DNA from: a virus
Direction: 5' to 3' (one strand)
Virus record (IMG/VR): IMGVR_UViG_3300037069_003700
Span: 1 to 22,076 of that record
DNA length: 22,076 bases
Shown here one piece after another: positions 820 through 21,837 of the stretch. The notes beneath the pieces are model-generated. The model was not told the origin of the DNA, searched no databases, and saw nothing but the letters and a program-made list of their open reading frames with translations. Each line of letters starts with the position of its first letter. Positions within the stretch are counted from its first letter, which is position 1. The translations under genes and the position numbers were made by a program.

Positions 820-2295
820 TCAGGCTCCGATCTGGCTCGACACCTGCACCAGGGCAGGGTTGAGGAAGGTGATCGTCACGTTGATCGTCTTGAGGTACGC
901 CAGCGGCACGATCGAGATCGTGACCAGAAGTTGCGACGTGGACAGGATGTTGTTGGTGCCGTTGATGGCCGCCGTGACCGAGCTGACCGCGCCGGCGTTC
1001 GTCAGGCCAGTGGCGAGTAGCGCGTTGACGGTGCCTTCCATCCGCCCCTTGTCTTGAGGCAGAATGAAGCCCGTTTTGCTGTCGACCCGGACGGAGTTCG
1101 ACAGTTGCCTGACGAAGTAGTTGTACGCGATGACGCACGAGGCATCGACGACGTGGCCGTACTGAAGCCACTTGAAGTCGCTCCCGGGTGCCGCCATCGA
1201 GTTCGGGTTCTTGATGTAGAGCCCGGGGAGACCAGCGAGCGACCACATTGACATGAACCGATTGGCGTCGAGGCCCGCGTTCACCGACTCATCGTGGTAG
1301 ATGAATCCGTCCGGGAGCGCGGGGAGCACGATCGGGATCGCGCCGTCGAGTACGCGGCCAAGGTCGACCTGGATCGCGACGGCCGAATCGCGCGAGGCGG
1401 CACCGAAGAGGAGCGGCCGGCGGAATTGCGTTTGCGAGATCGGGCTGATGAAGTTGTAGTGCCCGCCGGCAACGTGGGTCCGTCCGTTGACGCTGGTGAA
1501 CGTCGAGAAATCCGTTTCGATCGAGTTCATCCACGCGACTTCGGTCTCAGTCGACGTGCCGCCCCAAAGCGCATCGCGCGCATTGGTGAGCAGCCGACAG
1601 AACCGTTTTGAGAGGAACAGCGTGTTCATCTCGGAATCAAACGCGCTCGCATCGCCGCTTGCCGTGTCGCCGACCACGATCACGTCGACGGGGCTCGGAA
1701 CGATCGCGGAAATGAGCGACTGCATCGCGGAGACAGCGGTCGCGTCAGACCATTTCGGCTCGGTCGATACCCACGTGAGCACGTCGCCGGTGTCGAGCGT
1801 TCCGGCGGCGAAGTTCAGGGTAAGGCCCGTGTTTGGGGCCGCGAATGTTGTCGCGGTCAGCATGTTCGCCGTCGCGTATACCGTGCGGCCCGCGTCGAGC
1901 GAGATGGCGAGTTGAATGCCGGCTGTCCCGATCGTTCCGCCCGCCAGTACCTTGACGTTGCCGTAGTACGTGTCGAGCGGCGTGCCGGTCAAGGTCATGA
2001 CCGATGTGGAGCTGGCAACGCGCGTCGCCGTGACGGCCGAATTGGAGCCGGCCGTGACGGTCGCGGCCTTGACGAAAATGACGTCGTTGCCAGTGTCGTT
2101 CGCGATCTTGGCGGCGAGCTCGGGCCCGGGGCCGTAGCCGAATTGGGTCACGAACGGGCCAGGCTGAGGCGATTGGAATGGCTGGTACGGCGTTCCGGTC
2201 GATGACACGCCGATGACCGCAAGCGTGTTGCCACTGCCGGGCGAGGAGACGCCAAGTCCGTTGTCTTCGATTGTGAAGTTTACACCTTGGCCCAT
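820..2295 (-). CDS. Contractile tail sheath protein
   Basis: This is a 491-residue protein starting at ATG 2295 with an AAGGA Shine-Dalgarno a few bases upstream. The N-terminal part (residues 1-75) has the beta-rich pattern with LAVIGVSSTGTP typical of sheath domain I. The middle is a long beta-rich insertion, and the C-terminal domain ends in a PLAYLKTINVTITFLNPAL-type strand pair, as expected for sheath proteins that link to neighbours through their C-terminal arms. Length is normal for a sheath (about 400-700 residues). It sits just upstream of the tube gene. It implies a myovirus-type contractile tail, which agrees with the Mu-like head genes. Confidence 0.8.
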   Translation of the reverse strand: MGQGVNFTIEDNGLGVSSPGSGNTLAVIGVSSTGTPYQPFQSPQPGPFVTQFGYGPGPELAAKIANDTGNDVIFVKAATVTAGSNSAVTATRVASSTSVMTLTGTPLDTYYGNVKVLAGGTIGTAGIQLAISLDAGRTVYATANMLTATTFAAPNTGLTLNFAAGTLDTGDVLTWVSTEPKWSDATAVSAMQSLISAIVPSPVDVIVVGDTASGDASAFDSEMNTLFLSKRFCRLLTNARDALWGGTSTETEVAWMNSIETDFSTFTSVNGRTHVAGGHYNFISPISQTQFRRPLLFGAASRDSAVAIQVDLGRVLDGAIPIVLPALPDGFIYHDESVNAGLDANRFMSMWSLAGLPGLYIKNPNSMAAPGSDFKWLQYGHVVDASCVIAYNYFVRQLSNSVRVDSKTGFILPQDKGRMEGTVNALLATGLTNAGAVSSVTAAINGTNNILSTSQLLVTISIVPLAYLKTINVTITFLNPALVQVSSQIGA

Positions 2296-2314
2296 CGGTC
2301 CTTACCTCGCGCCC

Positions 2315-3417: not shown

Positions 3418-3692
3418 GAGGGGTTGGGGGCTCCCTTGAACGGCATGGCGGTGAGCCCGAGAACATTCGTCGCGGTAGTCGTCGACGACCACACGCGTTG
3501 GGTTGCGACCGGCAGAATGATGCCGGCGGGCAGGTTCGTGAAGGTTAGCGTTTGCCCGCGAACGTTCGTGAGCTTGATCGTTCCGCCGGCGCCCGTGAAC
3601 ACGCCCGCGAACGGGCCGGCCGGATCGGCGAGAGTATCGCTGGCCGTGATGGCTGCGCCGCCCTCGTAAGTGATCGAGCTGATGTTGCTCAT
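3414..3692 (-). CDS. Small phage structural protein of unknown role
   Basis: This 92-residue protein starts at ATG 3692 in an ATGA overlap. It begins MSNISSITYEGGAAITASDT and contains TLTFTNLPAGIILPVATQRV followed by a strand with TTTATNVLGL. I have seen this pattern (ITxSDT near the N-terminus, a TFTN(L/V)PAGxILPV core, then a VWSxxTTAT strand) in small beta-rich proteins encoded near phage head and connector genes. I cannot give a firm family name. It is likely a minor virion or head-surface protein. Translation is probably coupled to the connector gene upstream and the gpG-like gene downstream. Confidence 0.7.
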   Translation of the reverse strand: MSNISSITYEGGAAITASDTLADPAGPFAGVFTGAGGTIKLTNVRGQTLTFTNLPAGIILPVATQRVWSSTTTATNVLGLTAMPFKGAPNPS

Positions 3693-4147
3693 CGACACGT
3701 CCTCGTCCAGCCGCGGATCGCGTTGTTGCTCGGTCCGCCCGTGCGCACCGACGGCAGCGCGAAGTTGGGATACGCCGCCTTGGTGTAGATCAGATCCGGA
3801 ATCGAAATCTCTTGCCGCTTCACGCGCGAGAAGAAGCCGAGGACGCCCGTGTTCGGATTCCACGTCGCCGCGTAGTAGTTGGCGAGGATCCGGTTATCCG
3901 CGCCCGCGTCGGGCTGAAACCCGCGCGACTGAAAGAGCAGATAGACGGCAATGTAGCTCGTGTACATGACGAGCGACGTCGGGAACGGCGGCGAGTACGG
4001 GGCCGGGTACCTGTCGCAAAGGTACCCGTCGGCCTCGCTGCTTGCCGAGATGCACGAGGCCGTCTGCGTAGCCGGCGCGATCCCCTGCAACGCAAACGCG
4101 TTCGTTGCGTAGAGGACGAGATCGCTTGGCTGGCAGTACTGCGACAT
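3689..4147 (-). CDS. Mu gp36-like (DUF1320) head-tail connector protein
   Basis: This 152-residue protein starts at ATG 4147 with AGAGGG upstream. The opening MSQYCQPSDLVLYAT, followed by a helical segment with an ASCISASSEADGYLCDRY motif and then FPTSLVMYTSYIAVYLLF, is the layout of the DUF1320 / Mu gp36 family. These proteins form the adaptor ring between the portal and the tail. The length is close to the family norm of about 140-150 residues. It lies directly after the major capsid gene, as in Mu and Mu-like heads. It overlaps the next gene by four bases. Confidence 0.75.
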   Translation of the reverse strand: MSQYCQPSDLVLYATNAFALQGIAPATQTASCISASSEADGYLCDRYPAPYSPPFPTSLVMYTSYIAVYLLFQSRGFQPDAGADNRILANYYAATWNPNTGVLGFFSRVKRQEISIPDLIYTKAAYPNFALPSVRTGGPSNNAIRGWTRTCR

Positions 4148-4165
4148 GGCGGCCCTCTGCGACGG

Positions 4166-5158
4166 TTACGGACCGCTGCGCGCGAACAGCCACGAGTACG
4201 ACCAGCCCGGAGCCGCGCGGCCCCATACGCCCCACGCGTAGTGGTGCGTATCGAACACGAGCGGATCGTTTTCGTTCACGCGCGGCGTGAATACCGGCGC
4301 CTCGCGGACTTGCCAGATGAGCGGCTTGAAGCTCTTGGTCGTGTCGAACGCGTAAAACTTCGTGTTGCTCGTGAGGTACGGATTGATGACCGGCTCGACG
4401 CCGAAGCGCTTGAGTGGGTTATCCGCGGCGCCCACCTGTCCCGTGATCGTTCCCCACGCGGGCGGCGCGAAGAACTGGGATTTCATCACGAGTTCGGCCT
4501 CTTGCTTGAGCGCGGCCGGGACCATGACCTTGTTGAAGTAGACGCCGAGGGGCTCGTTATCCTCGCCCTTGAGCGTCATTCCGTACTCGATCATGGTCGC
4601 GAACGCGGTCGGCGAGAACGCCCCGCCGATGAGCGTGCCGTTGATCGTCTGGCCGCCGCCGGTGAAGTCGTTCGAGTACGTGCCGAGTGCGGGAGCGTAC
4701 AGGTTGATGTTGTGCGCCGTGTTGAACGCGGTGAGACCATCGAGTCCGGCTTGCGCGGTCGACCCGGAGAAGTCCCCGCGCGCCTCGAGCAAGTCCCGCG
4801 TCCAGTAGTCCGGCAAGCGCCGAATCTGCCGAGCCTGGTCGGGAAGCTGCCGGTAGTAAATCCCCATCATGTCGTCGTCGAGGTGGAACCGATCGATTGC
4901 GACCGTGGGCCCCTCGTACGGCTCATTGACGAGCGTGTACGTCTGCGGGTTCGCGCGAACCGTCACGCGTGCGCCCTTCCAGACGCGCGGCTTCGGGAGC
5001 ATCCCGGTCCAGCCGTAGACGTTCTGCGATCCGCTCGACGGGATGACGCTTGAGTACTCCTTCCAGATCTCGGGGACGCTGGAATCGGAGTACACCTGAC
5101 CGATCATTGTGTTGACGGTCGAGATGAAGAGATTGAACCCGCTCGGTGTGATGCTCAT
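4166..5158 (-). CDS. Major capsid protein, Mu gpT-like
   Basis: This 330-residue protein starts at ATG 5158, two bases after the decoration protein's TAG, with a GGGAG Shine-Dalgarno. The N-terminus (MSITPSGFNLFISTVNTMIG) and the early PEIWKEYSSVIPSSGSQNVY pattern match the gpT family of Mu-like major head subunits, which have the HK97 fold. The LLEARGDFSGSTAQAGLDGL and FNTAHN parts and a C-terminal HYAWGVWGRAAPG strand also fit. Family length is about 300-340 residues. It sits after protease/scaffold and decoration genes, the standard order. Confidence 0.82.
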   Translation of the reverse strand: MSITPSGFNLFISTVNTMIGQVYSDSSVPEIWKEYSSVIPSSGSQNVYGWTGMLPKPRVWKGARVTVRANPQTYTLVNEPYEGPTVAIDRFHLDDDMMGIYYRQLPDQARQIRRLPDYWTRDLLEARGDFSGSTAQAGLDGLTAFNTAHNINLYAPALGTYSNDFTGGGQTINGTLIGGAFSPTAFATMIEYGMTLKGEDNEPLGVYFNKVMVPAALKQEAELVMKSQFFAPPAWGTITGQVGAADNPLKRFGVEPVINPYLTSNTKFYAFDTTKSFKPLIWQVREAPVFTPRVNENDPLVFDTHHYAWGVWGRAAPGWSYSWLFARSGP

Positions 5159-5160
5159 GA

Positions 5161-5661
5161 CTATGGGCTCCCAGCTGATTCGTTAGAACCGAGCTTGATC
5201 GCGTAGATGCCCGGCGCGTCGGTTCGCGTCGAGTCCGTGTAGATGTGCACGCCTGCGACGGGGAGCGCCGCACTGTCGCTCGTGGCTGCGACCGTCTGCT
5301 CGTCGTAGAGGTAGACCGTCTTGCCCAGCGTCGTGACACCGAGCGCATCGGCTCCGGTCGACGAGGCGAGGAAGAACGTCCCCGTTCGGACCTCGACGGT
5401 GACCTGTCCGTCGACGGTGCCGCCGGTGATGCCGGGGCCCGTGTCGGCGGTGCCTGGACCCGCGTGCTCGTAGAGGCCCCACACGACGTCGGTCGAGAGG
5501 ATGGCCGAGTGCTGCGCCGGGACTGCGACGCCGCTTCGGGTGATCGCGACCGACCCGCGATAGACGGTCGTCGTCGCTTTCAGGTTGAGATTGACGGGCT
5601 GATTGGCGTTCCCGAGATCGCCCAGCCCGACGATCGGGATATCTGCCGTGAGATTCGCCAT
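5161..5661 (-). CDS. Capsid decoration protein (DUF2190-like)
   Basis: This 166-residue protein starts at ATG 5661, whose A is shared with the TGA of the protease gene (TGATG). It is beta-rich throughout: MANLTADIPIVGLGDLG at the N-terminus, a YRGSVAITRSGVAVP strand pair and a GQVTVEVRTGTFFLASS segment. Proteins of this size, placed between protease and major capsid genes with a YRGS-type strand early in the chain, are often capsid cement or decoration proteins of the DUF2190 kind. The residues are compatible with a small beta-barrel that binds the capsid surface. The family assignment is likely but not certain from reading alone. Confidence 0.65.
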   Translation of the reverse strand: MANLTADIPIVGLGDLGNANQPVNLNLKATTTVYRGSVAITRSGVAVPAQHSAILSTDVVWGLYEHAGPGTADTGPGITGGTVDGQVTVEVRTGTFFLASSTGADALGVTTLGKTVYLYDEQTVAATSDSAALPVAGVHIYTDSTRTDAPGIYAIKLGSNESAGSP

Positions 5662-6593
5662 CAGACCTGCCCTCCGCGACCGGCGCCATTGAGGCCGGAT
5701 CCGTTCGTGCCATTCAGGCCGTGGTCAGCCTGGTAGTTCTTGATGAACTGTTCGCGCGTGACCGACCCGTCGCTGGCCATGACCGCCTGATTGACGATCG
5801 CCTCGAGCTCCGGCGGTAGGACGCTCGACCCGTCCGGATTCTGCATCGCGGGAACGGGGAGATCCTCGGACTGACTGTAGACGAGGCCCCGGGGCCGCGC
5901 TTCGAGGAACGCCTCGACGTGCGCGATCGGCTTCTTGAAGAGGCCGGCCGCTTCCTTCTTCGTGATCCGGTTCGCAGCGAGGGCCGTTCGGACGACGCTG
6001 TCGCGGGCGGTCGCAGCATTGGCGCGTTCGAGCGCTGCCACTCGCTTGTTGGTCTCTTCGCTTGTTGCCATGAGCCCCTCGAATGCCCCGAGTGCCGCAG
6101 GGCCAGCGGCGACGGCGACACGCCGAAGTTCTTCCGTTGCGCTCGGACGTGTCGGCGCCGGTGCCGCGGCTCGCGGCTTTGGTACGGCCGGGATGCCGAG
6201 CGCCCGCTTGACGTCCTTGAGCTTGGCTTTCGAAAGGGCTTTGGCCGCGTCTGCGGTCATCTTGCCGCGTGCGACGGCTCGCTGGAGAAGACCCTCGCGC
6301 TTTTGCTTTCGCTCGGCCGAGCTCTTCTTCTCGTCTTCCTCGTCGCCGTCGTCTTCGTCCTCGTCAGGATCGTCCGAGCGGTCGGTCTCGTTACCCTTGG
6401 CCGCCGCGTCGTCCTCGTCCTCTTCGTCTTCCTCGTCGTCTTCCCCCTCTTCCGTCTCGTGCTTCTCGATCGAGTGCTTCGTTTTTTTGTAAGCCTCGAG
6501 AGAAGCGGCGAGCTCGGCCTTGCGCTTTGCATCCTTCTCAGACGCGAGCGCCGCCTCCGTCTTTTTGATCAGCGCGTCCAGGGCAAGGGTCAT
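5661..6593 (-). CDS. Predicted internal in-frame scaffold protein start
   Basis: Inside the protease gene, an in-frame ATG at 6593 (residue 305) is preceded by CCGGAGTC with six bases between GGAG and ATG, a better Shine-Dalgarno than most true starts in this window. The product would be 310 residues (MTLALDALIKKTEAALASEK onward): a helical, highly charged protein with an acidic stretch. That is the composition expected of an assembly scaffold. Phage lambda C/Nu3 and related protease-scaffold genes use the same nested arrangement. I infer the same here. Whether the site is used cannot be read from sequence. Confidence 0.6.
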   Translation of the reverse strand: MTLALDALIKKTEAALASEKDAKRKAELAASLEAYKKTKHSIEKHETEEGEDDEEDEEDEDDAAAKGNETDRSDDPDEDEDDGDEEDEKKSSAERKQKREGLLQRAVARGKMTADAAKALSKAKLKDVKRALGIPAVPKPRAAAPAPTRPSATEELRRVAVAAGPAALGAFEGLMATSEETNKRVAALERANAATARDSVVRTALAANRITKKEAAGLFKKPIAHVEAFLEARPRGLVYSQSEDLPVPAMQNPDGSSVLPPELEAIVNQAVMASDGSVTREQFIKNYQADHGLNGTNGSGLNGAGRGGQV

Positions 6594-7505
6594 TTTTGAC
6601 TCCGGGTCGACTTGATGGGTCTGCTTAGACAGATGGGTCGAATTAGACCGCTGAGTTGAATGTGACCCGGACTCGGCCGGTTGTGCAAGCGGTTTCGCTT
6701 GAGCGCGCTGGACTGGCCCGTTTCCTGCCGCCTCGGACAGGAGCGCGCACGCCTCGTCAAAGGTCATGACCGCGTCGGCAAGCCCGGCCGTTACACCTTC
6801 GCGTCCGAGGAAGATTCCGGCCTGAAATCCCTGGATCGACTTGATCGGAAGACCGCGCGCCTGACGTACGAGCTTGAAGAACTGAAGCGCGAGCTTGTCG
6901 ACGCGCCTCTTTTCCGACGCGACAGCCGTATCGGTGATCGGCACGTGCGGGTGCCCATCGGTCTTTTTTGACCCACTCGCGATCGTGACGTACCGGATCC
7001 CCATCGCCTCGTCGGCCGCGGTCACGTCGACCATCGTTGAGATGACGCCGATAGATCCGACGATCGCGGACTTCGGGAGGATGATCTCGTCGCACGAGCA
7101 CGAGAGGGCGTAAGCGGCGCTCGCGGCCATCTCGTCGACGTACGCAACGAACCGTTTGCCGCTCGCCTTGGCGCATTGCCGAAGCCGATCGACCGCCGAG
7201 CTCAGGCCCGACACGACGCCGCCGGGCGAATCGATCCGGAGCACGACCGCTTTGGCTTCCTCGCACGCGAACGCCTCTTCGGTACGCGCAACGATCGCGT
7301 CGTACGAATCCGAGCACGGATCGTCGTGATGCTCGAGCGGCCCGCGCACGTGCACGATCGCGAGACCGTCGTCGCGGTACTCGGTCTCCTGGATCGGCGG
7401 CGCGAACAGCCAGAAGAAGGCTTGCGGACCGTTGCCGGCCGACTGCCTCAGGAACGACGGGTCGATCGCGAGGGGCTCACCGGCTCGGACTTGGCGAATG
7501 GTCAT
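5661..7505 (-). CDS. Head maturation protease (S49/SppA-like) fused to scaffold domain
   Basis: This 614-residue protein starts at ATG 7505 in an ATGA overlap with the upstream gene. Residues 45-255 form an S49 (SppA/ClpP-fold) peptidase: the VLRIDSPGG turn is at 88-96, the likely catalytic Ser129 is in DEMAASAAY, the IVGSIGV strand is at 148-154, and a likely general-base Lys lies in SGSKKTDG (180-181). A linker rich in Ser, Gln and Thr follows. Then comes a scaffold-like region with Lys/Ala-rich helices at 305-350, a run of about 45 mainly Asp/Glu residues at 347-393, and a basic helical C-terminal part. The protease should cut the scaffold and capsid delta regions during prohead maturation. 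An internal start at 6593 may yield the scaffold alone. Confidence 0.82.
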   Translation of the reverse strand: MTIRQVRAGEPLAIDPSFLRQSAGNGPQAFFWLFAPPIQETEYRDDGLAIVHVRGPLEHHDDPCSDSYDAIVARTEEAFACEEAKAVVLRIDSPGGVVSGLSSAVDRLRQCAKASGKRFVAYVDEMAASAAYALSCSCDEIILPKSAIVGSIGVISTMVDVTAADEAMGIRYVTIASGSKKTDGHPHVPITDTAVASEKRRVDKLALQFFKLVRQARGLPIKSIQGFQAGIFLGREGVTAGLADAVMTFDEACALLSEAAGNGPVQRAQAKPLAQPAESGSHSTQRSNSTHLSKQTHQVDPESKMTLALDALIKKTEAALASEKDAKRKAELAASLEAYKKTKHSIEKHETEEGEDDEEDEEDEDDAAAKGNETDRSDDPDEDEDDGDEEDEKKSSAERKQKREGLLQRAVARGKMTADAAKALSKAKLKDVKRALGIPAVPKPRAAAPAPTRPSATEELRRVAVAAGPAALGAFEGLMATSEETNKRVAALERANAATARDSVVRTALAANRITKKEAAGLFKKPIAHVEAFLEARPRGLVYSQSEDLPVPAMQNPDGSSVLPPELEAIVNQAVMASDGSVTREQFIKNYQADHGLNGTNGSGLNGAGRGGQV

Positions 7506-7717
7506 GCGGCGAATCCCCAAAACGAGGTGAAGTAGGCGCGTAGCGCCGTGATTTCTGGCGCCGTCGCTGCGCGGTTGATTTTGATAAACTCGCCGAGATC
7601 CATGTCGACCCACTGGGTTGCCCCGACGAGTGATGCCCCAAAGATCGACAGCGGCGTGACAGGCGGTCCGCTGGCCCCGCCCGCGAAGCAATCGATCCCG
7701 ATCGCGATACAACTCAC
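7502..7717 (-). CDS. Small hypothetical protein between portal and protease
   Basis: This 71-residue protein is placed at GTG 7717 (MSCIAIGIDCFAGG), with GAGG seven bases upstream. A longer frame to 7855 would overlap the portal gene and is less likely. The N-terminus is small and hydrophobic, and the C-terminal half (MDLGEFIKINRAATAPEITA) is amphipathic. I do not recognise it. In Mu-type heads this position often holds small head proteins, and the MuF minor head protein usually also lies near here, but this product is far too short to be MuF. It ends in an ATGA overlap with the protease start, so both are probably translated together. Confidence 0.6.
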   Translation of the reverse strand: MSCIAIGIDCFAGGASGPPVTPLSIFGASLVGATQWVDMDLGEFIKINRAATAPEITALRAYFTSFWGFAA

Positions 7718-7727
7718 GGCGTGGCCC

Positions 7728-9179
7728 TCACGATCCGAACCCTCCGCCGCCGCCGCCACCACTCGAGGACGGCATCGGGTCGACGATCTCGAAATCAGGC
7801 AACCCATCGAGCCCGAACTTGTCCCGACAGAACGCGCGCAGTTCCTCGGTGTCACGGAACTTCACGCCGCCGCGCCGAAGTACCTCGACCGCCGTTCCGA
7901 ATTGCTGGAACTGTTTCGCGTTGTGCGTGTACTCCTCGCGCGGCGTCACGTCGTGATCCGTGATCGGGGCGAGATCGGGATCGCCGAAGTTCAGCCACGC
8001 GAACGGTCGCGCAACTTGCTGCCAGATCGTCCAGCGCCACGCGGCATTGTCAAACTGGCTCGTCTTCTCGTCGACGCCCTCGTGGGATTTCGATGCGGCG
8101 TACGATCCGCCGCTCTTGATCTCGGTCGTCAGGTTCGCGAACTTGATCGCGAGCACGATCGCCATGTCGCAGTGATCGCGAAGGCCGGGGAACGATTCCC
8201 ACGCGGTGTCCTTCGCCTCGACGAGTTCGAAGTCATACGAGTTCACGCCGTCGTTACCCTGCGAGACCATGATCGTGGTCTCGGTCGCGAGCTGAGAGAG
8301 AGCCGCGGCGAAGGCGTCGCGCTGCACCACATCGGCGCTCGCCGGGACCTTCCCCTTCTTGACGGGAAGCCCGTGCACCTCAGAGAAGCGCGCCCAGTCC
8401 CGTAGCGCCCAGTGCCGCATTAGCCACGGCTCGGCAACGGCGCGGATCGCCCCCCGGATCCAGCCACGATACTCGCCATAAGGGGCGTGTAGCAGCCATT
8501 TGCCGTTGCCCGGCATGATCGGGAGCTGACCATCCTGAGACAGCGCAATGAAGCGACGGAGCGGCCAATGGTAGTACGTGTAACGCGGATGCCAGGGCTT
8601 CAGGTACGGGCAATACTCGATCTCGCCGACGGGGCCCCAAGTGAGCTGCGCCGGTTCCCAGCCCATCAAGATCGTGTAGGCCTGCATCTCGGTCATGGCC
8701 GCCGCGGTCGCGAACATTGGCCATGCCTTCGCCCACGCGTCCATGCACTCGCGTGCGGCCATGCTGTCGTCGGCTGGTCGGAATCGGACCTCGCGACCGA
8801 AGAGGCCCGAGATGCGCGATCCGAGCGTCGCCTGCACGCGGTCGTCGCCGATCACGGCGTCAACGAGCTGCCCGCTTCCCTCGAAAATGCCCCACATGTG
8901 CGCGCGTACCGCGGCCCGCATCTGCGGAACGGTCCACTCGGTCAGCGTCTCGATGAGCGGAAGATCGCGGTAAACGAGCCGCGTCTGTTCCTTCGATGTA
9001 CCCTTGAGCGGATCGGTCGGAGGCTGAAACGCGGGATCGTTCAGCGCGATCGTCGCGGCGCCCCCGAGGTGCTCATTGATAACGCCCGGAAGGTTTCCCG
9101 GGCGGATCTGTTGAGCGTAGGGCGAGTCTGAGATCGAGCCCTTCGGGGGTCCGGAACCGCTGTCGACGGGCTCAGCCAC
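7728..9179 (-). CDS. Portal protein, Mu gp29-like (DUF935)
   Basis: This 483-residue protein starts with GTG at 9179. The chain has the layout of the DUF935 (Mu gp29) portal family: an N-terminal region ending in LTEWTVPQMRAAVRAHMWG, a segment with GDDRVQATLGSRISGL, then MQAYTILMGWEPAQLTW, and an HPRYTYYHWPLRRFIALSQDG stretch followed by WLLHAPYGEYRGWIRGAIRA. Portal rings of 12 subunits form the DNA entry channel and bind terminase. The C-terminus is a glycine-rich tail of about ten residues ending FGS. It lies two small genes downstream of the large terminase and upstream of the protease, as in Mu. The spacer before it carries a tandem repeat. Confidence 0.8.
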   Translation of the reverse strand: MAEPVDSGSGPPKGSISDSPYAQQIRPGNLPGVINEHLGGAATIALNDPAFQPPTDPLKGTSKEQTRLVYRDLPLIETLTEWTVPQMRAAVRAHMWGIFEGSGQLVDAVIGDDRVQATLGSRISGLFGREVRFRPADDSMAARECMDAWAKAWPMFATAAAMTEMQAYTILMGWEPAQLTWGPVGEIEYCPYLKPWHPRYTYYHWPLRRFIALSQDGQLPIMPGNGKWLLHAPYGEYRGWIRGAIRAVAEPWLMRHWALRDWARFSEVHGLPVKKGKVPASADVVQRDAFAAALSQLATETTIMVSQGNDGVNSYDFELVEAKDTAWESFPGLRDHCDMAIVLAIKFANLTTEIKSGGSYAASKSHEGVDEKTSQFDNAAWRWTIWQQVARPFAWLNFGDPDLAPITDHDVTPREEYTHNAKQFQQFGTAVEVLRRGGVKFRDTEELRAFCRDKFGLDGLPDFEIVDPMPSSSGGGGGGGFGS

Positions 9180-9799: not shown

Positions 9800-9997
9800 T
9801 CACTCCTCACCACTGGAAATCAGGTTGTCCGGCACGGCATCCGGGCGGTTGTTCGATCCGCCGGGAAGACGGCTCGTTGCATCACGGAGACGCTCTTCGC
9901 TTGCGCGCCGCATTCGCTTGGACTCTTCGACGCTCACGCGCTCGCCCTGTTTCCGCGTCTCTCGCACGAGGTCGTCTTCTCGGTTGCTCATGGTCAT
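9800..9997 (-). CDS. Small charged hypothetical protein
   Basis: This 65-residue protein starts at ATG 9997, overlapping the terminase stop as ATGA. A second ATG two codons later is an alternative start. It is rich in Arg, Glu, Ser and Asp (residues 5-40 are a highly charged amphipathic helix) and ends in a disordered Pro/Asn/Gly tail. No domain is recognised. Its place just after the terminase suggests a packaging or head accessory, but that is positional only. Confidence 0.6.
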   Translation of the reverse strand: MTMSNREDDLVRETRKQGERVSVEESKRMRRASEERLRDATSRLPGGSNNRPDAVPDNLISSGEE

Positions 9998-11388
9998 ATC
10001 CTAGGCTTTCCGAAGGTCTTTGCAATGAATCCACCCGAGAATAGCGCCCCATCGCAGCCCGATACAAGCGCGTCGATCTCGTCGTCGTCGCCCGCCTTCG
10101 GGTTCCCAGTGAAGAGGCGACATCGCGACACGAACGCATTGACCCACGGCGCCTGCTCCGGGAGCATAATGCGTCCGGCGTTCCATGCATCGATCGTCTT
10201 GCGTGCGCGCGTCCCTTTGTCGTACCGGGCCGGCATCGCCTCGACGTTGACGCCGCGATCAATGAGGTACTGAATCGCGCCCTTCTCGGGCCCCGAGATG
10301 TACGAGAAGATCGCGGCTCCCGGATACTGGCGGAGCGCGAACAGGAGCCGCTGCGCCGCCATGTCGAGATCGCGTCGCTCGCGGTGCGCCTCGACGACGT
10401 ACGCGCGACCTTCCCAGATCTTCATCACGACGAGCGCAAAGAAGTCGCTCGAGGCCTCCACCGAGTAGGCGAGGTCGATCCCGAAGGCCCATCGGCCGAA
10501 GCTGGGGACGATGGCGTATCGGCTCGGATTGCCGAACAGGCCGAGCACGTCCGGCTGAGGGTTGTTCTGGAACTGCGCTTGCCAGAGTCGCTCGCCTTCG
10601 CCTAGCTCACGGAGCTCCGCGCGCCGCCTCTTGAGATCCTCGAGCGTCATGACGTTGGGAGCAAACGCGCGCTCGTCCGGGCCGTCCTCGTCGACTATCG
10701 CCGGGTGACGGATCTCCTCCCACACGCTCGCCTCGCGCAACAGCCGCCGGCCCGCCGGATCGTCCGGGTGCCATCGCGACATGATGCCGAGCACGGAGCC
10801 TGGACGACCAGGCCGCCCCGCGCGCGCGGTGTAGTGCGCGATCGCCGTATCGACCTCGGTGCGCACCCTGAGATCGAATGCGCCGTGCTCGTTGACGGGG
10901 TCGTCGAAAAACAGGATGTCGCAATCCTGCCCTAGCTTCGATTGCTTCGCGCTCATGACGGACACGCCGCCGCCTTGAGAGTTCTGCCAGATCGTCTGCT
11001 TGTTCCAATCGCGCTCCGGACCGATGCCGGCCGCTTCGCAAATCTGCCTCGTGCGCCGCCCGAGGTACTCCGCGCGCTCGTGGTCGTACGTGAAGAGAAC
11101 GATCTTCAACGTCGGATTGTGGACGAGCAGCCACGCGATGCCGTGAAGCGTCGTCTCCGTCTTGAAGTGTCGGATCGGAACACTGACGAGCGCGCGCACC
11201 GCTTCGGTGAGGCACCTTTCGATGATCGCGCACCAGTCGGCCAGATGGTACGGCGACGAGAACTCCGGCGAGATGCGCGGAATGAAGTCGAGAAGCGAGA
11301 GGCCGCGGAGTTGCTGTGCTAGCGGGATTTCTTCAACGGCCGGCGGCCCTGATATGCTCGGTCCCGGGTCGTCCTTCTTCCGCGCCAC
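9994..11388 (-). CDS. terL: Terminase large subunit
   Basis: This 464-residue protein starts with GTG at 11388 and overlaps the upstream glycosyltransferase gene by 56 bases. The N-terminal ATPase domain has a Walker-A-like motif at residues 70-80 (VPIRHFKTETT, with Lys/Thr in the P-loop position) and a Walker B at 158-163 (ILFFDD). The C-terminal RNase H-like nuclease has its first acidic motif at 303-308 (GIDLAY) and a late acidic cluster at 434-439 (DDDEID), as in large terminases with the ITP/SRWHPDD pattern at 204-210. It packages DNA into the prohead through the portal. It is encoded upstream of the portal and head genes, as in other Mu-like heads. I see no obvious small terminase next to it. 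Confidence 0.87.
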   Translation of the reverse strand: MARKKDDPGPSISGPPAVEEIPLAQQLRGLSLLDFIPRISPEFSSPYHLADWCAIIERCLTEAVRALVSVPIRHFKTETTLHGIAWLLVHNPTLKIVLFTYDHERAEYLGRRTRQICEAAGIGPERDWNKQTIWQNSQGGGVSVMSAKQSKLGQDCDILFFDDPVNEHGAFDLRVRTEVDTAIAHYTARAGRPGRPGSVLGIMSRWHPDDPAGRRLLREASVWEEIRHPAIVDEDGPDERAFAPNVMTLEDLKRRRAELRELGEGERLWQAQFQNNPQPDVLGLFGNPSRYAIVPSFGRWAFGIDLAYSVEASSDFFALVVMKIWEGRAYVVEAHRERRDLDMAAQRLLFALRQYPGAAIFSYISGPEKGAIQYLIDRGVNVEAMPARYDKGTRARKTIDAWNAGRIMLPEQAPWVNAFVSRCRLFTGNPKAGDDDEIDALVSGCDGALFSGGFIAKTFGKPRI

Positions 11389-12052
11389 TTGCAGAGCTTA
11401 CCACTTCGGGCTTCGTCGCCCGATAAACCTGAGCCCCAACATGATCCAGCGGCGATCCGGGGCCCGTGTAAAGGTGAATCTCCCCGCCGATCCGGAGCCA
11501 TCGCTCGCAGAACGAGAAGTCCTCACTGAGCAGCGCCCGGTGCGGCTGCGGATCCTGCACGTCGGAGAAGAGCAACTGAAAGAGCGCGACCGTCACGATT
11601 GGCTTGTCGTCGACGACGTCCGTGAAACGAAGCTCGTCGTAGTACGTGTCCCACATCTTCCGAAGGCACGCCTCTTTGATGAGCGTGAAGCCCATTGGAA
11701 CGAGCGGCTCGTGATGGGTCATGCGCCCGTGAACGCTCTTCTTCGGGTACGGGCACGCAATGACGTCGACGTCGCACCGGAGCATTTCACGGAGCGCGAG
11801 TCCGGCACCGGCGCCCCCGACGTCCGCGTCCCAAAACAAGAGATGCGTGTAGCACCCGTCGAGCGCCATTCTCGCGGCCCGCGATCGGGCGCGTACAAGA
11901 TCCATGTTCGTGAACGCGTTCCCGCTCGCGATCGTCGGGCTTGAGACGATCTGGATCGCTTTCAACATCGACAGCATGTAGTGGAGCGCGACGTCGCCGG
12001 AGAGGCCGCCCATGAGCGGGGTGGCGATGAGGAGACGGGTGGGCTCGATCAT
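11333..12052 (-). CDS. Glycosyltransferase, GT-A-like
   Basis: This 239-residue protein starts at ATG 12052 in an ATGA overlap with the upstream gene. It begins MIEPTRLLIATPLMGG, a Rossmann-like first strand and nucleotide-binding turn. A DXD-type motif, FWDADVGG, lies at residues 73-80, followed by the MLRCDVDVIACPYP strand. That is the layout of small phage-encoded GT-A glycosyltransferases, which use a metal ion and a nucleotide-sugar donor. It belongs to the sugar cassette upstream but lies closest to the terminase. Its 3' end overlaps the terminase start by 56 bases, so this end is constrained by two reading frames. The donor and acceptor are unknown. Confidence 0.7.
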   Translation of the reverse strand: MIEPTRLLIATPLMGGLSGDVALHYMLSMLKAIQIVSSPTIASGNAFTNMDLVRARSRAARMALDGCYTHLLFWDADVGGAGAGLALREMLRCDVDVIACPYPKKSVHGRMTHHEPLVPMGFTLIKEACLRKMWDTYYDELRFTDVVDDKPIVTVALFQLLFSDVQDPQPHRALLSEDFSFCERWLRIGGEIHLYTGPGSPLDHVGAQVYRATKPEVVSSASGAEEGRPGTEHIRAAGR

Positions 12053-12225
12053 TTTCGGGGCCCCGATTTTTTGCGGGCCGCTTTCTTTGCCAGCTCGAGT
12101 CTGTGCCGAAGATCGGAGATCTGTTCTCTCTGCCAACGCGTGGTCTCAAGAGCCGCGTGTAGGTAACTCTGAAGGTCAATCACGAGGGTCTGTAGCTGTT
12201 CGATTGTGAAAGTTGGGCCGCTCAT
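12049..12225 (-). CDS. Small coiled-coil protein
   Basis: This 58-residue protein starts at ATG 12225, overlapping the GroES-like stop as ATGA. Most of the chain (residues 8-52) is one predicted helix with regular hydrophobic spacing (IEQLQTLVIDLQSYLHAALE, then ISDLRHRLELAKKAARKK), so a coiled coil is likely. It has a basic Lys/Arg-rich tail. No family is recognised. It may be an adaptor or a small structural protein. Its place between the co-chaperonin and a glycosyltransferase gives no clear clue. Confidence 0.65.
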   Translation of the reverse strand: MSGPTFTIEQLQTLVIDLQSYLHAALETTRWQREQISDLRHRLELAKKAARKKSGPRK

Positions 12226-12560
12226 GTTCCTACCACCGCGATCACCTCTTCCTGAGTCACCCACACGCACGGCTCGCCATCGTCCCACACGCTCGCGCGC
12301 GTCTTCTCGATGCCGCCCGACGCGAACACGTAGACGACCTCATCACCGACCTCGAACCCGTGCGCGAGCTCGTGCCCGTACTGAAGCGCCGGGGCTCCTA
12401 TGCCGAGCACGCGACCGCGGTGCGACGAGCGCGCCTTGATGCCCTTGGACTTGTCCTCGTCCCGTTCGGTGTCGGGACGCTGGTCCGGGTGCCAGATGAG
12501 CCCGGTGCGCATCGGGATGATGGGACGGATCGCGATTCGGCCGCGCAAGGGTCTCAGCAC
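12222..12560 (-). CDS. GroES-like (Cpn10) co-chaperonin
   Basis: This protein of about 112 residues is placed at GTG 12560, overlapping the upstream stop by seven bases. The order of motifs matches GroES: an early RIAIRPI strand, then GLIWHP where GroES has the GIVL mobile-loop motif, then SHRGRVLGIG, the VGDEVVYV strand and a C-terminal WVTQEEVIAVV strand equal to the GroES 'SESDILAIVE' end. The stretch before the GLIW motif is short, and about 20 residues rich in Asp, Glu and Lys follow it, so the loop region differs from GroES. Phage T4 gp31 and similar phage proteins replace GroES when folding the capsid protein. The role here is inferred. Confidence 0.78.
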   Translation of the reverse strand: MLRPLRGRIAIRPIIPMRTGLIWHPDQRPDTERDEDKSKGIKARSSHRGRVLGIGAPALQYGHELAHGFEVGDEVVYVFASGGIEKTRASVWDDGEPCVWVTQEEVIAVVGT

Positions 12561-13336
12561 GCCAGCCACCTTTCCCAATCCGCATCCGTAGCGCCCTTTA
12601 CCCATCGCCTCGCCAATCGTGGCACCATGTCCCCGTAAAACCGGCTGAGCGGCACCGGCGGCACCCCGCGCCACCATTCCGCGTCGGTGCCCGGCAGACT
12701 GTCGCGCCAGGTCACCACAGGCCTACGATGTGAATGCGCGTCGTTGCCGTACGTGCTCGCGATGCTCGTGTCGTGGTCGATGATCGTCGGGACCGGATGC
12801 AGGATCGGATCGCCGCTCACGACCGCCCAGACGCAAAGGAGCGTGTCCTCGGTGATCGATTCGACGCCGCCTTTGCAGAGCGCGCGCGATCGCCAATCGA
12901 GGAACCGGCGCAGCGTCGGAACCGGCACGACGTAGCCGACGCCAACGAGACCGTCCGGCGTCTCGACCATTCGCGCGCCGCATTCGTGCGCCCGCTTCGC
13001 TTCGGGGTGCACCGTCTCGAGGCCGATGATTCGGTCCGGGTAAGCCTCGACCATCGCGGTCAGTTCGGCCCAGAAGTTCGGCGAGACGATGACGTCGTCT
13101 TGAAGGGTGAGGAAGTGCGGCGTCCCAGATTCGACGCCCCAATTCCACATCTTCTGGGACCAAACGTGATTGTGCTCGCGCTCGACAAAGAACCGTTTTG
13201 TCAGCATGCCGTCGTCGTACGTGCCGAGCGCCTTGCTCTCGCCGTCCTCGAGCGAGTTGTCGAGCAGCCGAAGACTTTGAACCCGCGCCGGCACCCAAGG
13301 CGTGTGCGGAATGCCGAGCGAAAACGTCACCGTCAC
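12554..13336 (-). CDS. Glycosyltransferase, paralogue of the 14753-15493 enzyme
   Basis: This 260-residue protein starts with GTG at 13336 in a GTGA overlap, giving MTVTFSLGIPHTPWVPARVQ. That N-terminus lines up with its paralogue at 14753-15493. A DXD-like LQDDVIVSPNFW is at residues 78-89, followed by RIIGLETVHPEA and a VGYVVPVPTLRRFLDW segment. It is a GT-A-type glycosyltransferase with a probable metal-bound nucleotide-sugar site. It lies directly after a methyltransferase and before the co-chaperonin. A longer start at 13348 exists but would use TTG and extend the gene over the neighbour. The acceptor is unknown. Confidence 0.7.
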   Translation of the reverse strand: MTVTFSLGIPHTPWVPARVQSLRLLDNSLEDGESKALGTYDDGMLTKRFFVEREHNHVWSQKMWNWGVESGTPHFLTLQDDVIVSPNFWAELTAMVEAYPDRIIGLETVHPEAKRAHECGARMVETPDGLVGVGYVVPVPTLRRFLDWRSRALCKGGVESITEDTLLCVWAVVSGDPILHPVPTIIDHDTSIASTYGNDAHSHRRPVVTWRDSLPGTDAEWWRGVPPVPLSRFYGDMVPRLARRWVKGATDADWERWLAC

Positions 13337-13893
13337 TTGACCCGCCAAACCGATCCGCTCGGTCGCAAGATGTTCTCTTTCCCGAATGCCTCATGAACCG
13401 CGCGATCGACGCCCGGGAATGACCCGTACGAGTCGCCCGAGTAGTCGTGCCCGCACATGATGCCGCTCGGCTTCAGCGAGCCGCGCCACGCCGCGATGTC
13501 GGCCTTGACCGATTCGTAGTTGTGGTCCGCGTCGATGAAGATGAGATCGAATACGCCCGGCAAAGCGACGCTCGACCGACCTCGGCTCGTGTTGATCATG
13601 CCCCAGGCCGGGGGAGCCGTCGTACGGATGTGGGACCGAAATATTTCCCACATATCCGGGCACCACGAAGCTTCCCACGCGTCGACGCCCCAGATTTCCG
13701 CCGTCTTCCCGTGCCGCGCGAACGCTTCGGCCAGGTAGATCAGCGACCGGCCCTTGTAGACGCCGACCTCGACGCATCGTGCGCCGTCGGGAAGTTCGGC
13801 GACGAGCGATTCGTAGAAGGGCAGGATATCGCTCGACCAGCCCTCGATTTCGGGCCGCCAGTTGTCCCAGGGATCGCCGCTCGGTTCGCTCAC
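13333..13893 (-). CDS. Class I SAM-dependent methyltransferase
   Basis: This 186-residue protein starts with GTG at 13893 in a GTGA overlap with the epimerase stop. Motif I, VEVGVYKGRS, is at residues 41-50, an acidic residue that would bind the ribose is at Asp71 (WGVDAWE), and FIDADHNYE is at 119-127. This is the Methyltransf_24 pattern seen in enzymes that methylate sugars or small molecules. A GHDYSGDSYGSFPGVDRAV segment lies in the C-terminal part. With sugar enzymes on both sides, the most likely substrate is a sugar hydroxyl on the glycan built by the cassette. That is inference, and a direct role in DNA modification is not excluded. Confidence 0.75.
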   Translation of the reverse strand: MSEPSGDPWDNWRPEIEGWSSDILPFYESLVAELPDGARCVEVGVYKGRSLIYLAEAFARHGKTAEIWGVDAWEASWCPDMWEIFRSHIRTTAPPAWGMINTSRGRSSVALPGVFDLIFIDADHNYESVKADIAAWRGSLKPSGIMCGHDYSGDSYGSFPGVDRAVHEAFGKENILRPSGSVWRVK

Positions 13894-14756
13894 GTTTTCT
13901 CTTCCTTTCCGTACCAGCCCAACGATCGCAACGCGTCGCGCACGCCGTCACCGATCGAAACCGGCGATGGCGGCACGAACTTTTGGAGCCTTCGCGGGTC
14001 GAGCCACGAGTGCGTGTCGCCGATCCAGCCCTCGGCTTTTTCCTCGCACGTTGTCTCAAAGGCGCGCACCGATTGCATCACGTCGGCAGTTTGCCGCCAT
14101 GACCACGTGTCGCCCGCGACGTTGTACGTGCCTTGCGGGACCGTTCCGCAGAGCGCCCCGATCACGGCCCGAACGACGTATTCGACGTGCACGAACGAGC
14201 GCGGGCGAGAGATGCTGCGCGCGTGAAACTTGCCCGTCTTGCGCACCTGCTCGACCATGTCCGCGATGTGGCCGTGGTGGTAGCTATGCCCGACCACGCT
14301 CGCGAGCCGATAGATGTGGGCCGATACGCCGCGCGCGTGGCAATAGGCCTGCACGAGCGCTTCGCCGGCGAGCTTCGACGCGGCGTAAGGGCTCGTCGCG
14401 AACGTGCCGCACGTCTCGTTGCAGATGTTCGCCTTCCGGTAAACCGCGCCCGTTGAGAGGAAGACGACAGGCACCGGACATGCCTCGAGAAGCGCAATCG
14501 TTGCTAGAATGTTGTTGCGATACAGGCTTTCGCGTTCGTCGTCGGATTCCCAATTGCTGGACACATCGGCGTGTGCGGCGCAGTGGACCACGGCGTCGCA
14601 CTTGGCTTCGGGATCGTTCGGGCTGAGAGATTCGAGATGCCGCGGCCCGAGATTGCAGCGCTTGTCGAGGATCGTGTAGTCGATTCCTTCGCGATCGAGG
14701 CCGATGCAGATGTTTCGGCCGATGAAGCCCGAGCCGCCAGTGACCAAGACCCTCAT
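13890..14756 (-). CDS. NAD-dependent epimerase/dehydratase (nucleotide-sugar, extended SDR)
   Basis: This 288-residue protein starts at ATG 14756 in an ATGA overlap. The Rossmann motif TGGSGFIG is at residues 6-13, the VVHCAAHADV strand at 56-65, a catalytic Ser/Thr at 101-102 in STGAVY, and the YxxxK pair is Tyr124/Lys128 (YAASK). These are the extended short-chain dehydrogenase/reductase features of GalE/RmlB-like nucleotide-sugar enzymes. The length is normal for a compact member (about 290-330). It should make a dTDP-, UDP- or GDP-sugar that the adjacent glycosyltransferases use. The substrate cannot be read from the sequence. Confidence 0.8.
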   Translation of the reverse strand: MRVLVTGGSGFIGRNICIGLDREGIDYTILDKRCNLGPRHLESLSPNDPEAKCDAVVHCAAHADVSSNWESDDERESLYRNNILATIALLEACPVPVVFLSTGAVYRKANICNETCGTFATSPYAASKLAGEALVQAYCHARGVSAHIYRLASVVGHSYHHGHIADMVEQVRKTGKFHARSISRPRSFVHVEYVVRAVIGALCGTVPQGTYNVAGDTWSWRQTADVMQSVRAFETTCEEKAEGWIGDTHSWLDPRRLQKFVPPSPVSIGDGVRDALRSLGWYGKEEKT

Positions 14757-15493
14757 CGCGGCAGCCCCAACATCGGAGCCGGCTTGTGCGCGAGCCAAAA
14801 CTGAGGATCGCGCATCGTGGGCCACTTTCCGATCACTTCGTTGTCGTCCCACTTCACCCGTTCATGGCTGTAGTTGTCGCCGTGCCCAGTGTGGCTCCAC
14901 GTCGACGGCCCGCGATGGTGCGAGATCGGTGTTGGGATCGGGTGCCAGGCCTCGCGCGGACCGTGGAACGTGATCCATTCGTTGAGCTCGGAATCGTCCG
15001 ACCAGCCTAACTTGTCGACACTGCCTGCTGGCGTTCGCGCTTCGGACCACGCCAGCAGCTTGACCATCATCGCGTGCGGAACGATGTATGCCGGTCCGAC
15101 GACCCACGAATTGGTGCGGTACCAGCGCACGCCTTCGGTTCGAAGTCTCGGCGCCTCGGGATGATTCGAGAGGAGCCCGATCACCGAGTTCGGTCGCGCC
15201 GTTACGATCGCTTCGATGACCGACCAAAAGCGCGGACACGTGTCGATGTCGTCGGTCATTAGGACGTGATGCGAGACGTCCTGGCGCGCGCACCATCGCC
15301 ACTGATTGAGCGTGAAGTCGACCGGATCGGATTTCGGCGTCGCCATTCCGAACCGATAGTCGATGTCGTGCACGTAGAACGGTAGCGATCCGTCGTCCGG
15401 ATCGGGGAGCAAACGTTGCTGCATCAGGCGTAGACGCGGCTTGCGCTCGGTCGACCACGGCGCGTGATTGATGAGGAGAGAGAAAGAGATCAC
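14753..15493 (-). CDS. Glycosyltransferase, GT-A-like
   Basis: This 246-residue protein starts with GTG at 15493 in a GTGA overlap with the previous gene (MISFSLLINHAPW). A DXD-type motif, MTDDIDTCPRFW, is at residues 79-90. It is followed by SVIGLLSNHPEA, VGPAYIVPHAMMVKLLAW and a WSHTGHGDNY segment. Side-by-side reading with the 12554-13336 protein shows the same N-terminal FSLxIxHxPW, the DD(I/V)..(C/S)P.FW metal site, an IGL...HPEA strand and a (V/G)xxYxVP segment, so the two are paralogues. It probably transfers a sugar made or altered by the adjacent epimerase and methyltransferase. Confidence 0.72.
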   Translation of the reverse strand: MISFSLLINHAPWSTERKPRLRLMQQRLLPDPDDGSLPFYVHDIDYRFGMATPKSDPVDFTLNQWRWCARQDVSHHVLMTDDIDTCPRFWSVIEAIVTARPNSVIGLLSNHPEAPRLRTEGVRWYRTNSWVVGPAYIVPHAMMVKLLAWSEARTPAGSVDKLGWSDDSELNEWITFHGPREAWHPIPTPISHHRGPSTWSHTGHGDNYSHERVKWDDNEVIGKWPTMRDPQFWLAHKPAPMLGLPR

Positions 15494-21182: not shown

Positions 21183-21373
21183 GCCGAGCCCCCCTTCGCC
21201 TCGCCCTTCTTCGTCCACTTCCGTTCAATCTCCGTCATGCCCCGCTCGAGCAGGTGCCGGATCGCGGCGGAGATCGTCACGGCAGGCGATTGCGATTCGG
21301 CCCACGCTCGAATGCGGGCGTTGAGGTCGGCGGGGATTCGTACGGGTCGGACCACGTCGGTGTCTCTGTTCAT
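21179..21373 (-). CDS. Ribbon-helix-helix (Arc/MetJ-like) DNA-binding protein
   Basis: This 64-residue protein starts at ATG 21373 (ATGA overlap, with GGGAGG upstream). It has VVRPVRIPADLNARIRAWAE as the strand and first helix, then the second helix with ISAAIRHLLERGMTEIERK, and a basic Lys-rich tail. It is clearly similar to the 53-residue RHH protein at 16563-16724. Such proteins bind operators as dimers and often control early/late switching or plasmid-like maintenance. It is the second gene of the early operon. The basic tail of about 15 residues is absent from its paralogue. Confidence 0.72.
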   Translation of the reverse strand: MNRDTDVVRPVRIPADLNARIRAWAESQSPAVTISAAIRHLLERGMTEIERKWTKKGEAKGGSA

Positions 21374-21804
21374 GCGGCGCCTCCCGCGCACTTGCGAATG
21401 TCGTTCAGCGCGTCTGCGTTCGACGCGAAAAAGTCAGGTACGCGCCCGGTACTGCGGAAATAGATCAGCGCACCGGCCGCCGATGGGCCGAGCGTCTTTT
21501 CCAGTTCGGCCCCTTCTGCCCCTGCGAGCGCGATCGCCCACCCCGCTCGGCAGTGGGTCGTCCCGCAGTGCCACGAGCCCATTTCGAGGCGCGCCCCGTC
21601 CTCGCTGGCCTCCAGTATCTTCCGGTCCAGATCCGGCACCGTTGGGGCGTCCGGGAGACCGACGGCGCCGGTGAGGTTCGCGCCGGTGAGGTACGCGTCG
21701 GCGAGGTTCGCGCTGGCGAGGTACGCGCGGCCACCGGAGACACGTGCGGACTCGACCCACAATTTGTGCTTGGCCAGGATTTCGGAGAGCTCGTCTTTGG
21801 TCAT
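21370..21804 (-). CDS. Pentapeptide-repeat protein
   Basis: This 144-residue protein is placed at ATG 21804 (MTKDELSEILAKHKLWVESA). An in-frame TTG at 21837 would start inside the promoter. Residues 27-46 are four A(Y/N)Lxx pentapeptides (AYLAS ANLAD AYLTG ANLTG), about one coil of a right-handed quadrilateral beta-helix. The rest includes HCGTTHCRAGWAIALAG, a segment common in phage proteins of this type, and a C-terminal helix ending KCAGGAA. Such proteins are frequent in phages and some mimic DNA. With only four repeats here, that is speculative. No Shine-Dalgarno precedes the ATG, and the -10 box is five bases upstream. Confidence 0.72.
   Translation of the reverse strand: MTKDELSEILAKHKLWVESARVSGGRAYLASANLADAYLTGANLTGAVGLPDAPTVPDLDRKILEASEDGARLEMGSWHCGTTHCRAGWAIALAGAEGAELEKTLGPSAAGALIYFRSTGRVPDFFASNADALNDIRKCAGGAA
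21671..21730. repeat. Four 15-bp coding repeats in the pentapeptide gene
   Basis: Four 15-base units, each beginning G(T/C)GAGGT(T/A)CGCG on the plus strand, lie in tandem at 21671-21685, 21686-21700, 21701-21715 and 21716-21730. They alternate T/A at one position, so on the minus strand they encode alternating Asn and Tyr pentapeptides, giving a 30-bp higher-order period. This suggests fairly recent duplication at DNA level. Confidence 0.75.
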
Positions 21805-21809
21805 GCCGC

Positions 21810-21837
21810 AATGTAGCGCGTTTATAACAATTGTCAA
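21810..21837 (-). promoter_or_regulatory. Promoter of the early operon
   Basis: On the minus strand TTGACA (21832-21837), a perfect -35, is followed at 16 bp by TACATT (21810-21815), a 4/6 match to TATAAT. Only five bases separate the -10 from the ATG at 21804, so the mRNA would start at or near the start codon. ACAATTGT lies across the end of the -35 and the spacer and could be an operator. Confidence 0.55.

Follow-up and report, generated by a model that had tools for sequence, protein, structure and literature searches.

A recurrent sugar-enzyme unit with a GroES-like gene beside Mu-type head genes: a possible cassette for virion-protein glycosylation

Introduction

To what would a sugar be attached when the enzymes that handle it are encoded immediately ahead of the genes that build a virus head? 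This question is raised by the IMG/VR virus record IMGVR_UViG_3300037069_003700, whose 22,076 bases make up the whole of the stretch analyzed here (the window) and which, as the window is the entire record, is probably a fragment. At 11333-15493 on its minus strand, a run of genes for sugar enzymes leads into the gene for the large subunit of the terminase (terL) and the capsid genes. The original prediction described there a coupled unit of an epimerase/dehydratase, an S-adenosylmethionine (SAM) methyltransferase and three GT-A-like enzymes, and favored the virion over the DNA as the glycosylated component. The best reading of the unit, still unproven, is that of a phage cassette for the glycosylation of virion proteins, to which we would give a probability of roughly 0.55.

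Results

The order of the unit is GT1-EPI-MT-GT2-GroES-like gene-58-aa open reading frame (ORF)-GT3, followed by terL (9994..11388; phrog_38 2e-51, PF17289), where GT1 to GT3 are glycosyltransferases (GTs), EPI is the epimerase/dehydratase and MT the methyltransferase, all of them on the minus strand. The genes are closely interlocked: 4-nt overlaps of the ATGA or GTGA type join GT1 to EPI, EPI to MT, MT to GT2, the GroES-like gene to the small ORF and the small ORF to GT3, and longer overlaps of 7 nt and 56 nt are found between GT2 and the GroES-like gene and between GT3 and terL, respectively. GT1 is itself coupled to the ORF upstream and starts with GTG, as do MT and GT2, EPI and GT3 starting with ATG; no internal stop was found in the cassette reading frames checked. 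The coupled unit and its course into the terminase and capsid genes were therefore confirmed as predicted, with all five enzymes in place, whereas the gene list was incomplete, since the GroES-like gene (12222-12560) and the 58-codon ORF (12049-12225) had been overlooked.

The six cassette genes have a G+C content of 0.62-0.67 (0.77-0.84 at third positions), which is similar to that of the head genes, so that a recent import is not evident. None of the six proteins has a clear membrane span (the 19-residue hydropathy maximum being 2.07, in the Rossmann region of EPI), and no gtr-type membrane flippase or glycosyltransferase is apparent among them on this measure, the GtrA family itself not having been searched. 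A scan for promoters and terminators gave zero promoter-like sites; terminator-like sites numbered 8, where shuffling gave 5.0 on average (standard deviation 2.7).

In their predicted models, GT2 (12554..13336, 260 aa; phrog_854 'glucosyltransferase', 5e-9) and GT3 (11333..12052, 239 aa; phrog_1574, 6e-7, the type of A197 of Sulfolobus turreted icosahedral virus, STIV) both have the GT-A fold with a metal motif of the DxD type. The AF2 model of GT2 (predicted local distance difference test, pLDDT, 89) has GnT-I as its top match in VIA-align (Z 16.2, root-mean-square deviation, rmsd, 4.3, 218 residues aligned) and Mimivirus R655 in Foldseek, and its list of structural matches is headed by enzymes of protein glycans, GnT-I and POMGnT1, the latter a protein O-mannose GlcNAc-transferase. 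The GT3 model (pLDDT 76) matches STIV A197 best (2c0n; Z 15.3, rmsd 2.2, 154 aligned), with LH3 tied (Z 14.9) and COLGALT1 next, and the GT3 profile also reaches 2c0n in the PDB (E 1e-3); collagen galactosyltransferases are present in the lists of both enzymes. The residues D75 and D77 (DxD), E177 and D178 (ED) and the C-terminal H204 of GT3 are invariant in 11 sequences, and in the metal motif common to GT2 and GT1, D80 is invariant and D81 is kept in at least 90% of 12. GT1 (14753..15493, 246 aa), a paralog of GT2 with an xDD motif (29% identity), is assigned to GT-A through this homology alone, so that the prediction of GT-A-like enzymes was upheld by the models for two of the three. No Pfam family is matched by either GT1 or GT2.

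EPI (13890..14756, 288 aa; PF01370, 7.5e-31) is an extended short-chain dehydrogenase/reductase (SDR) of the nucleotide-sugar epimerase/dehydratase type, with the motifs GxxGxxG and YxxxK intact by eye and GalE 3ehe as its nearest PDB chain (1.1e-22). As it falls far under every NCBIfam cut-off listed (64.5 bits against 262.3 for the GalE equivalog TIGR01179), its specificity stays at the SDR level. MT (13333..13893, 186 aa; PF13578, 8.2e-18) is a class I SAM methyltransferase of the Methyltransf_24 family, and the best PDB match of its profile (A6) is 6g7d (4.1e-6), which we take to be a sugar O-methyltransferase.

The gene within the unit that had escaped the original prediction (12222..12560) encodes a protein of 112 aa that is, by sequence similarity, a full-length relative of the co-chaperonin GroES/Cpn10: with a profile of five homologs (A13), GroES chains of the PDB are reached at 1.3e-7, the match covering positions 3-100 of the 102 in the profile. 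Against the Pfam Cpn10 cut-off of 21.1, the copy in record G001 passes (22.0), the copies of the window alone (14.3) and of L179 (14.4) stay below, and that of L107 has no Pfam match at 0.01. The mobile loop of GroES carries a hydrophobic tripeptide that binds GroEL, and LIW, IIM and LLW, seen by eye at roughly that position, are candidates for it. The small ORF that follows (12049..12225, 58 aa) overlaps its two neighbors at ATGA and belongs to no family.

Relatives were collected by an alignment search with three portals, which gave 70 viral loci (50 were searched for the cassette families, the 20 left out being shorter records), and by alignment scans of IMG/VR with GT2 and GT3, which added L093, L176-L179, L096-L098 and L107; the GT2-profile scan alone gave six records, with Portal_Mu in all. 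Ten IMG/VR records beyond the window carry GT2-type and/or GT3 genes, with methyltransferases in most, making 11 cassette records, and genes of the GT1/GT2 type are found in ten of these, L097, which is cut at its contig start, showing GT3 and a methyltransferase only. Portal_Mu is present in the window and in the ten cassette records searched, and a single record bears both cassette and head genes in 10/10 relatives searched, as it does in the window, which makes the GTs phage-encoded. The unit lies upstream of terL (of the portal in L098) and on its strand in eight of the 11: the window, L093, L096, L097, L098, L177, L178 and L179. GT2 and GT3 form a single ORF in L093, L176 and L177. The tailoring enzymes differ among records, both in EPI (41% identical between the window and L093) and in the SAM methyltransferases, which number from one to three; one in L178 scores above the NCBIfam cut-off for 'putative sugar O-methyltransferase'.

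The nearest relative, L010 (record G001, 44,752 bases), has a portal 61%, a major capsid protein 56% and a terL 54% identical to those of the window, and its terL has no cassette in front of it. Three methyltransferases, GT1, GT2, the GroES-like gene and GT3 follow one another in this order at 39.5-44 kb, antisense to the tail genes, the four genes shared with the window being 40-47% identical (40% for GT1). The recurrence of the order GT1-GT2-GroES-GT3 at such identities in an independent record is beyond chance; and as these four genes are found together at another genome position, the GroES-like gene keeps with the GTs on relocation, and travels with them and not with terL. It was found in the window and four of the ten relatives with the cassette (5/11), all in the first portal clade described below, and in none of 49 other portal relatives (L107 served as positive control in the same search, and L019, among the 49, has other sugar genes). 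Fisher's test for the association gives 8.5e-5, kinship being ignored and all five records belonging to one portal clade.

In a portal tree of 83 rows, the ten cassette rows fall into two clades, which takes two changes against a mean of 9.6 when shuffled, and none of 500 shuffles was as low. The first clade holds the window, L010, L097, L107, L178 and L179, and the second L093, L096, L098 and L177; L176, whose portal lies outside the fetched locus, was left out. The portals of the window and L093 are 24% identical, and their terminases (phrog_38 and phrog_2) have no significant match to each other. As the two clades have different terminase families, the co-occurrence of cassette and head genes is not that of one inherited block alone, although the clustering comes in part from sampling, since it was through queries with the cassette that all clade members except L010 and the window came in.

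Among the 50 portal relatives, epimerases were found in one, phrog_1574 in two, phrog_854 in one and Methyltransf_24 in two (one over the cut-off), all in G001 or G009, many of the other 48 being short fragments. In L019 (record G009), whose portal row is outside both cassette clades, the same slot upstream of terL (1052-5163) is occupied by Glycos_transf_2, Gly_transf_sug and GDP-mannose 4,6-dehydratase genes, and the Gly_transf_sug ORF also yields a phrog_1574 match, that is, a GT3-like region. The listed ORFs upstream of terL in L011, L015-L018 and L020 include, by eye, no sugar enzyme.

In tblastn searches of 50,697 phage records, GT1 and GT2 had zero matches at E 0.01, EPI had zero at 1e-5, with 88 records matching weakly once E was relaxed to 1, and GT3 matched 46 records, nearly throughout cyanophages and pelagiphages; the examined stretches of pelagiphages HTVC027P and HTVC023P hold the GT3 match only. 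GT3 by itself was tried as a cassette marker and rejected, being found in at least 263 viral contigs, with similar head genes in 4 of 80 loci kept. Single-protein searches of viral contigs with terL, GT1 and GT2 gave no close relatives, and comparing the entire window with phages by megablast gave zero matches.

Elsewhere, the minus strand holds, by Pfam and PHROGs, a Mu-type head and contractile-tail module: a Mu-type portal (7728..9179; PF06074, 1.7e-41), an S49 head maturation protease (5661..7712 from the first start codon, the true start not being set; phrog_53 6.5e-62, PF01343), a Mu gpT-like major capsid protein (4166..5158; PF10124, 2.5e-35), a DUF2586 tail sheath (820..2295; PF10758, phrog_907) and a gp36-like protein. 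The closest isolate match of the portal is that of Myxococcus phage Mx4 (33.9% identity), which has no match to a cassette protein in the 50 of its 57 kb examined. No tRNA was found in the window. A pentapeptide-repeat protein (21370-21837; PF00805, just above the cut-off) is encoded upstream of primase-like genes.

Several further features were observed in the relatives. A Cys-rich C-terminal tail (CxxC..CxxC) extends GT2 in L178 (3376-4350), L179 (3724-4554), L107 (8395-9243) and L098 (849-1673); it has no Pfam match in L178 or L107, and presumably resembles a zinc-binding domain of the ClpX type. A small lipoprotein-like ORF without phrog match lies between EPI and the fused GT2::GT3 in L093 (~1132-1494), and a small hydrophobic ORF within the cassette of L179, both recognized by eye. 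Between GT3/MT and terL of L097 (1373-3032) stand an ORF with pentapeptide repeats and one that, by eye, resembles a DNA methyltransferase, and the terL ORF of L178 (6183-8003) has an N-terminal stretch that matches phage acetyltransferase families (phrog_1249, 8e-4), from a fusion or a mis-set start. The contig ends of L089 (2-226) and L097 (3-120) have low-complexity repeats, read as Gly/Tyr/Asp or Arg/Val in the frames called, at which the assembly may have broken off.

Discussion

From the gene content, the coupling, the GT-A folds, the GroES-type sequence, the recurrence and the fusion of GT2 with GT3, we infer an acceptor, a sugar, a set of activities and a role for the co-chaperonin as follows. 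EPI would supply or interconvert a nucleotide sugar, MT would O-methylate a sugar, and GT1/GT2 and GT3, two or three GT-A enzymes acting in the cytosol, would attach and extend a short glycan on a virion protein of the same operon, whether of the capsid, the head decoration or the tail; the GroES-like protein would cap the host GroEL during late expression, helping to fold the acceptor or the GTs. The gene set fits the making and attaching of a methylated glycan, and it is the linkage of the cassette to head genes in two lineages that tips the balance toward the virion. The preference of the original prediction for the virion over the DNA is in this way partly sustained: in its favor are the late strand, the soluble-looking enzymes, the head genes in two distant lineages, the lack of PF00303 in the related records and the resemblance of GT3 to A197, while the acceptor is putative and a route to the host surface keeps some probability.

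A number of facts weigh against glycosylation of the virion. Acceptor, sugar and glycan are all putative, and the acceptor is not fixed by the fold, as the fold lists also hold GTs of polysaccharides and teichoic acids (SpsA, TarP, hyaluronan synthase). In G001 the cassette comes after the tail genes and runs on the other strand, in L107 it is divergent from terL, and in L176 it is some 28 kb from the portal, with a tyrosine integrase (4979-6343) upstream of MT and GT2::GT3, a placement that might resemble that of a lysogenic-conversion gene in a phage that may be temperate. The four cassette families, found in only one or two of the 50 portal relatives, point to a dispensable trait, and the co-chaperonin was found in no record of the second clade.

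Part of this evidence leads to the main rival, a modification of the host surface in which lipopolysaccharide (LPS), capsule or another envelope glycan would be altered during lysogeny or in the late phase of infection, so that superinfection is blocked. Comparable phage GT clusters have been read so in cyanophages and jumbo phages, according to the available extracts of PMC7824862; the tailoring enzymes vary between related phages, and the integrase of L176 as well as the lipoprotein-like and hydrophobic ORFs in the units of L093 and L179 would suit this route, to which cytosolic enzymes could contribute by acting on lipid-linked host sugars. We nevertheless consider it unlikely, if the most serious of the alternatives: eight of the 11 records place the unit upstream of terL or the portal on the same strand; the integrase is seen in one of ten records, all of them fragments; the cassette genes include, on hydropathy only, no membrane GT, flippase or polymerase, and the six proteins without a clear membrane span argue against a complete envelope-glycan route; and a co-chaperonin has no obvious role in envelope glycan synthesis.

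The same head-gene linkage, in two lineages with different terminases, speaks against an acceptor that is a small molecule or a protein of the host, glycosylated for takeover, counter-defense or secondary metabolism, a reading which has the least probability of all, even if the extracts of PMC7824862 suggest a secondary metabolite for one cyanophage cluster. Hardly better placed, and quite improbable, is the glycosylation of a hypermodified base in the phage DNA. The label 'glucosyltransferase' given by PHROGs to the GT2 family and that of 'DNA methyltransferase' given to the closest methyltransferase family would suit it, virus GTs that hypermodify DNA exist (by a reference in the extract of PMC12619734), and, as all the records are fragments, genes for making the base may lie outside them. 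However, Methyltransf_24 and the putative sugar O-methyltransferase point to the methylation of sugars, a Pfam scan of 30 ORFs of the window found none of the PF00303 type (thymidylate synthase/hydroxymethylase), and this family was found in none of the ten related records, themselves fragments, the control matching in 9 of 14 genomes; for enzymes of this type, the results agree with the earlier statement that none for making a modified base is seen here. A search for Tet_JBP carries no weight, as it gave no match in any control.

Returning to glycosylation of the virion, a more specific form of it can be proposed, doubtful as we hold it to be, in which the phage GroES-like subunit would make the GroEL of the host a compartment where the glycan acceptor, or else the GTs, are folded, uniting the folding of a virion protein with the attachment of its sugar in a co-chaperonin-coupled glycosylation module.

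The class to which such a cassette would belong is already known, and only the combination of genes looks new. Glycans on the capsid and tail subunits of mycobacteriophages (Che8 type) are in print (Freeman et al., 2023, as cited in the available parts of PMC12619734 and PMC11256854), so that the earlier remark that a sugar coat would be unusual is true only in part, and its mention of immune evasion has no support for an environmental phage. In those excerpts, as here, phage GTs are present and glycosylated subunits of the capsid or tail are the proposed product; the differences are that our case is a myovirus with a Mu-type head and a co-chaperonin in the unit, known from its genes alone. 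A197 of STIV, an archaeal virus, is described in the consulted portion of PMC4187194 as a strong but uncharacterized candidate for glycosylation of the STIV coat protein; GT3 is like it in fold and sequence profile, and unlike it in being borne by bacteriophages within a multi-gene unit and fused to GT2 in three records. With the capsular or LPS sugar clusters of cyanophages and jumbo phages, as presented in the extracts of PMC7824862 (where they are read as diversifying host polysaccharides), the unit shares paralogous GTs, sugar enzymes and O-methyltransferases that vary among relatives, but it is small, linked to head genes and, in one clade, provided with a co-chaperonin. This last is, like T4 gp31 and other phage co-chaperonins in the available text of PMC6318259, a virus-encoded relative of Cpn10 that would serve phage proteins, yet its gene, unlike that of gp31, is translationally coupled to GTs and moves with them. 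The Xanthomonas jumbo phage XacN1, in the accessible part of PMC5852040, encodes a GroES-like protein as well as two GTs, and at least two of its proteins were detected as glycoproteins, although the genes are separate ORFs (282; 328 and 334) and not one unit, and in the excerpts of PMC9599517 and PMC5852040 the related genes are named apart. In PubMed Central text under CC0, CC BY or CC BY-SA, no description was found of a fusion-prone GT2/GT3 pair with methyltransferases and, in one clade, a traveling GroES-like gene, nor any passage that brings together a phage, a glycosyltransferase, a co-chaperonin, an operon, a capsid and a methyltransferase.

Conclusion

Glycans on phage virions are documented in few phages, and as GTs like these match no Pfam family, the enzymes that make them are hard to recognize. 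The cassette offers markers for them, namely GT2 together with GT3 (sometimes fused), SAM methyltransferases and the GroES-like gene, and these markers reach environmental myoviruses with Mu-type heads, beyond the actinobacteriophages in which the trait was shown. If the link with the co-chaperonin were functional, the biology of chaperonins would be joined with protein glycosylation in a virus.

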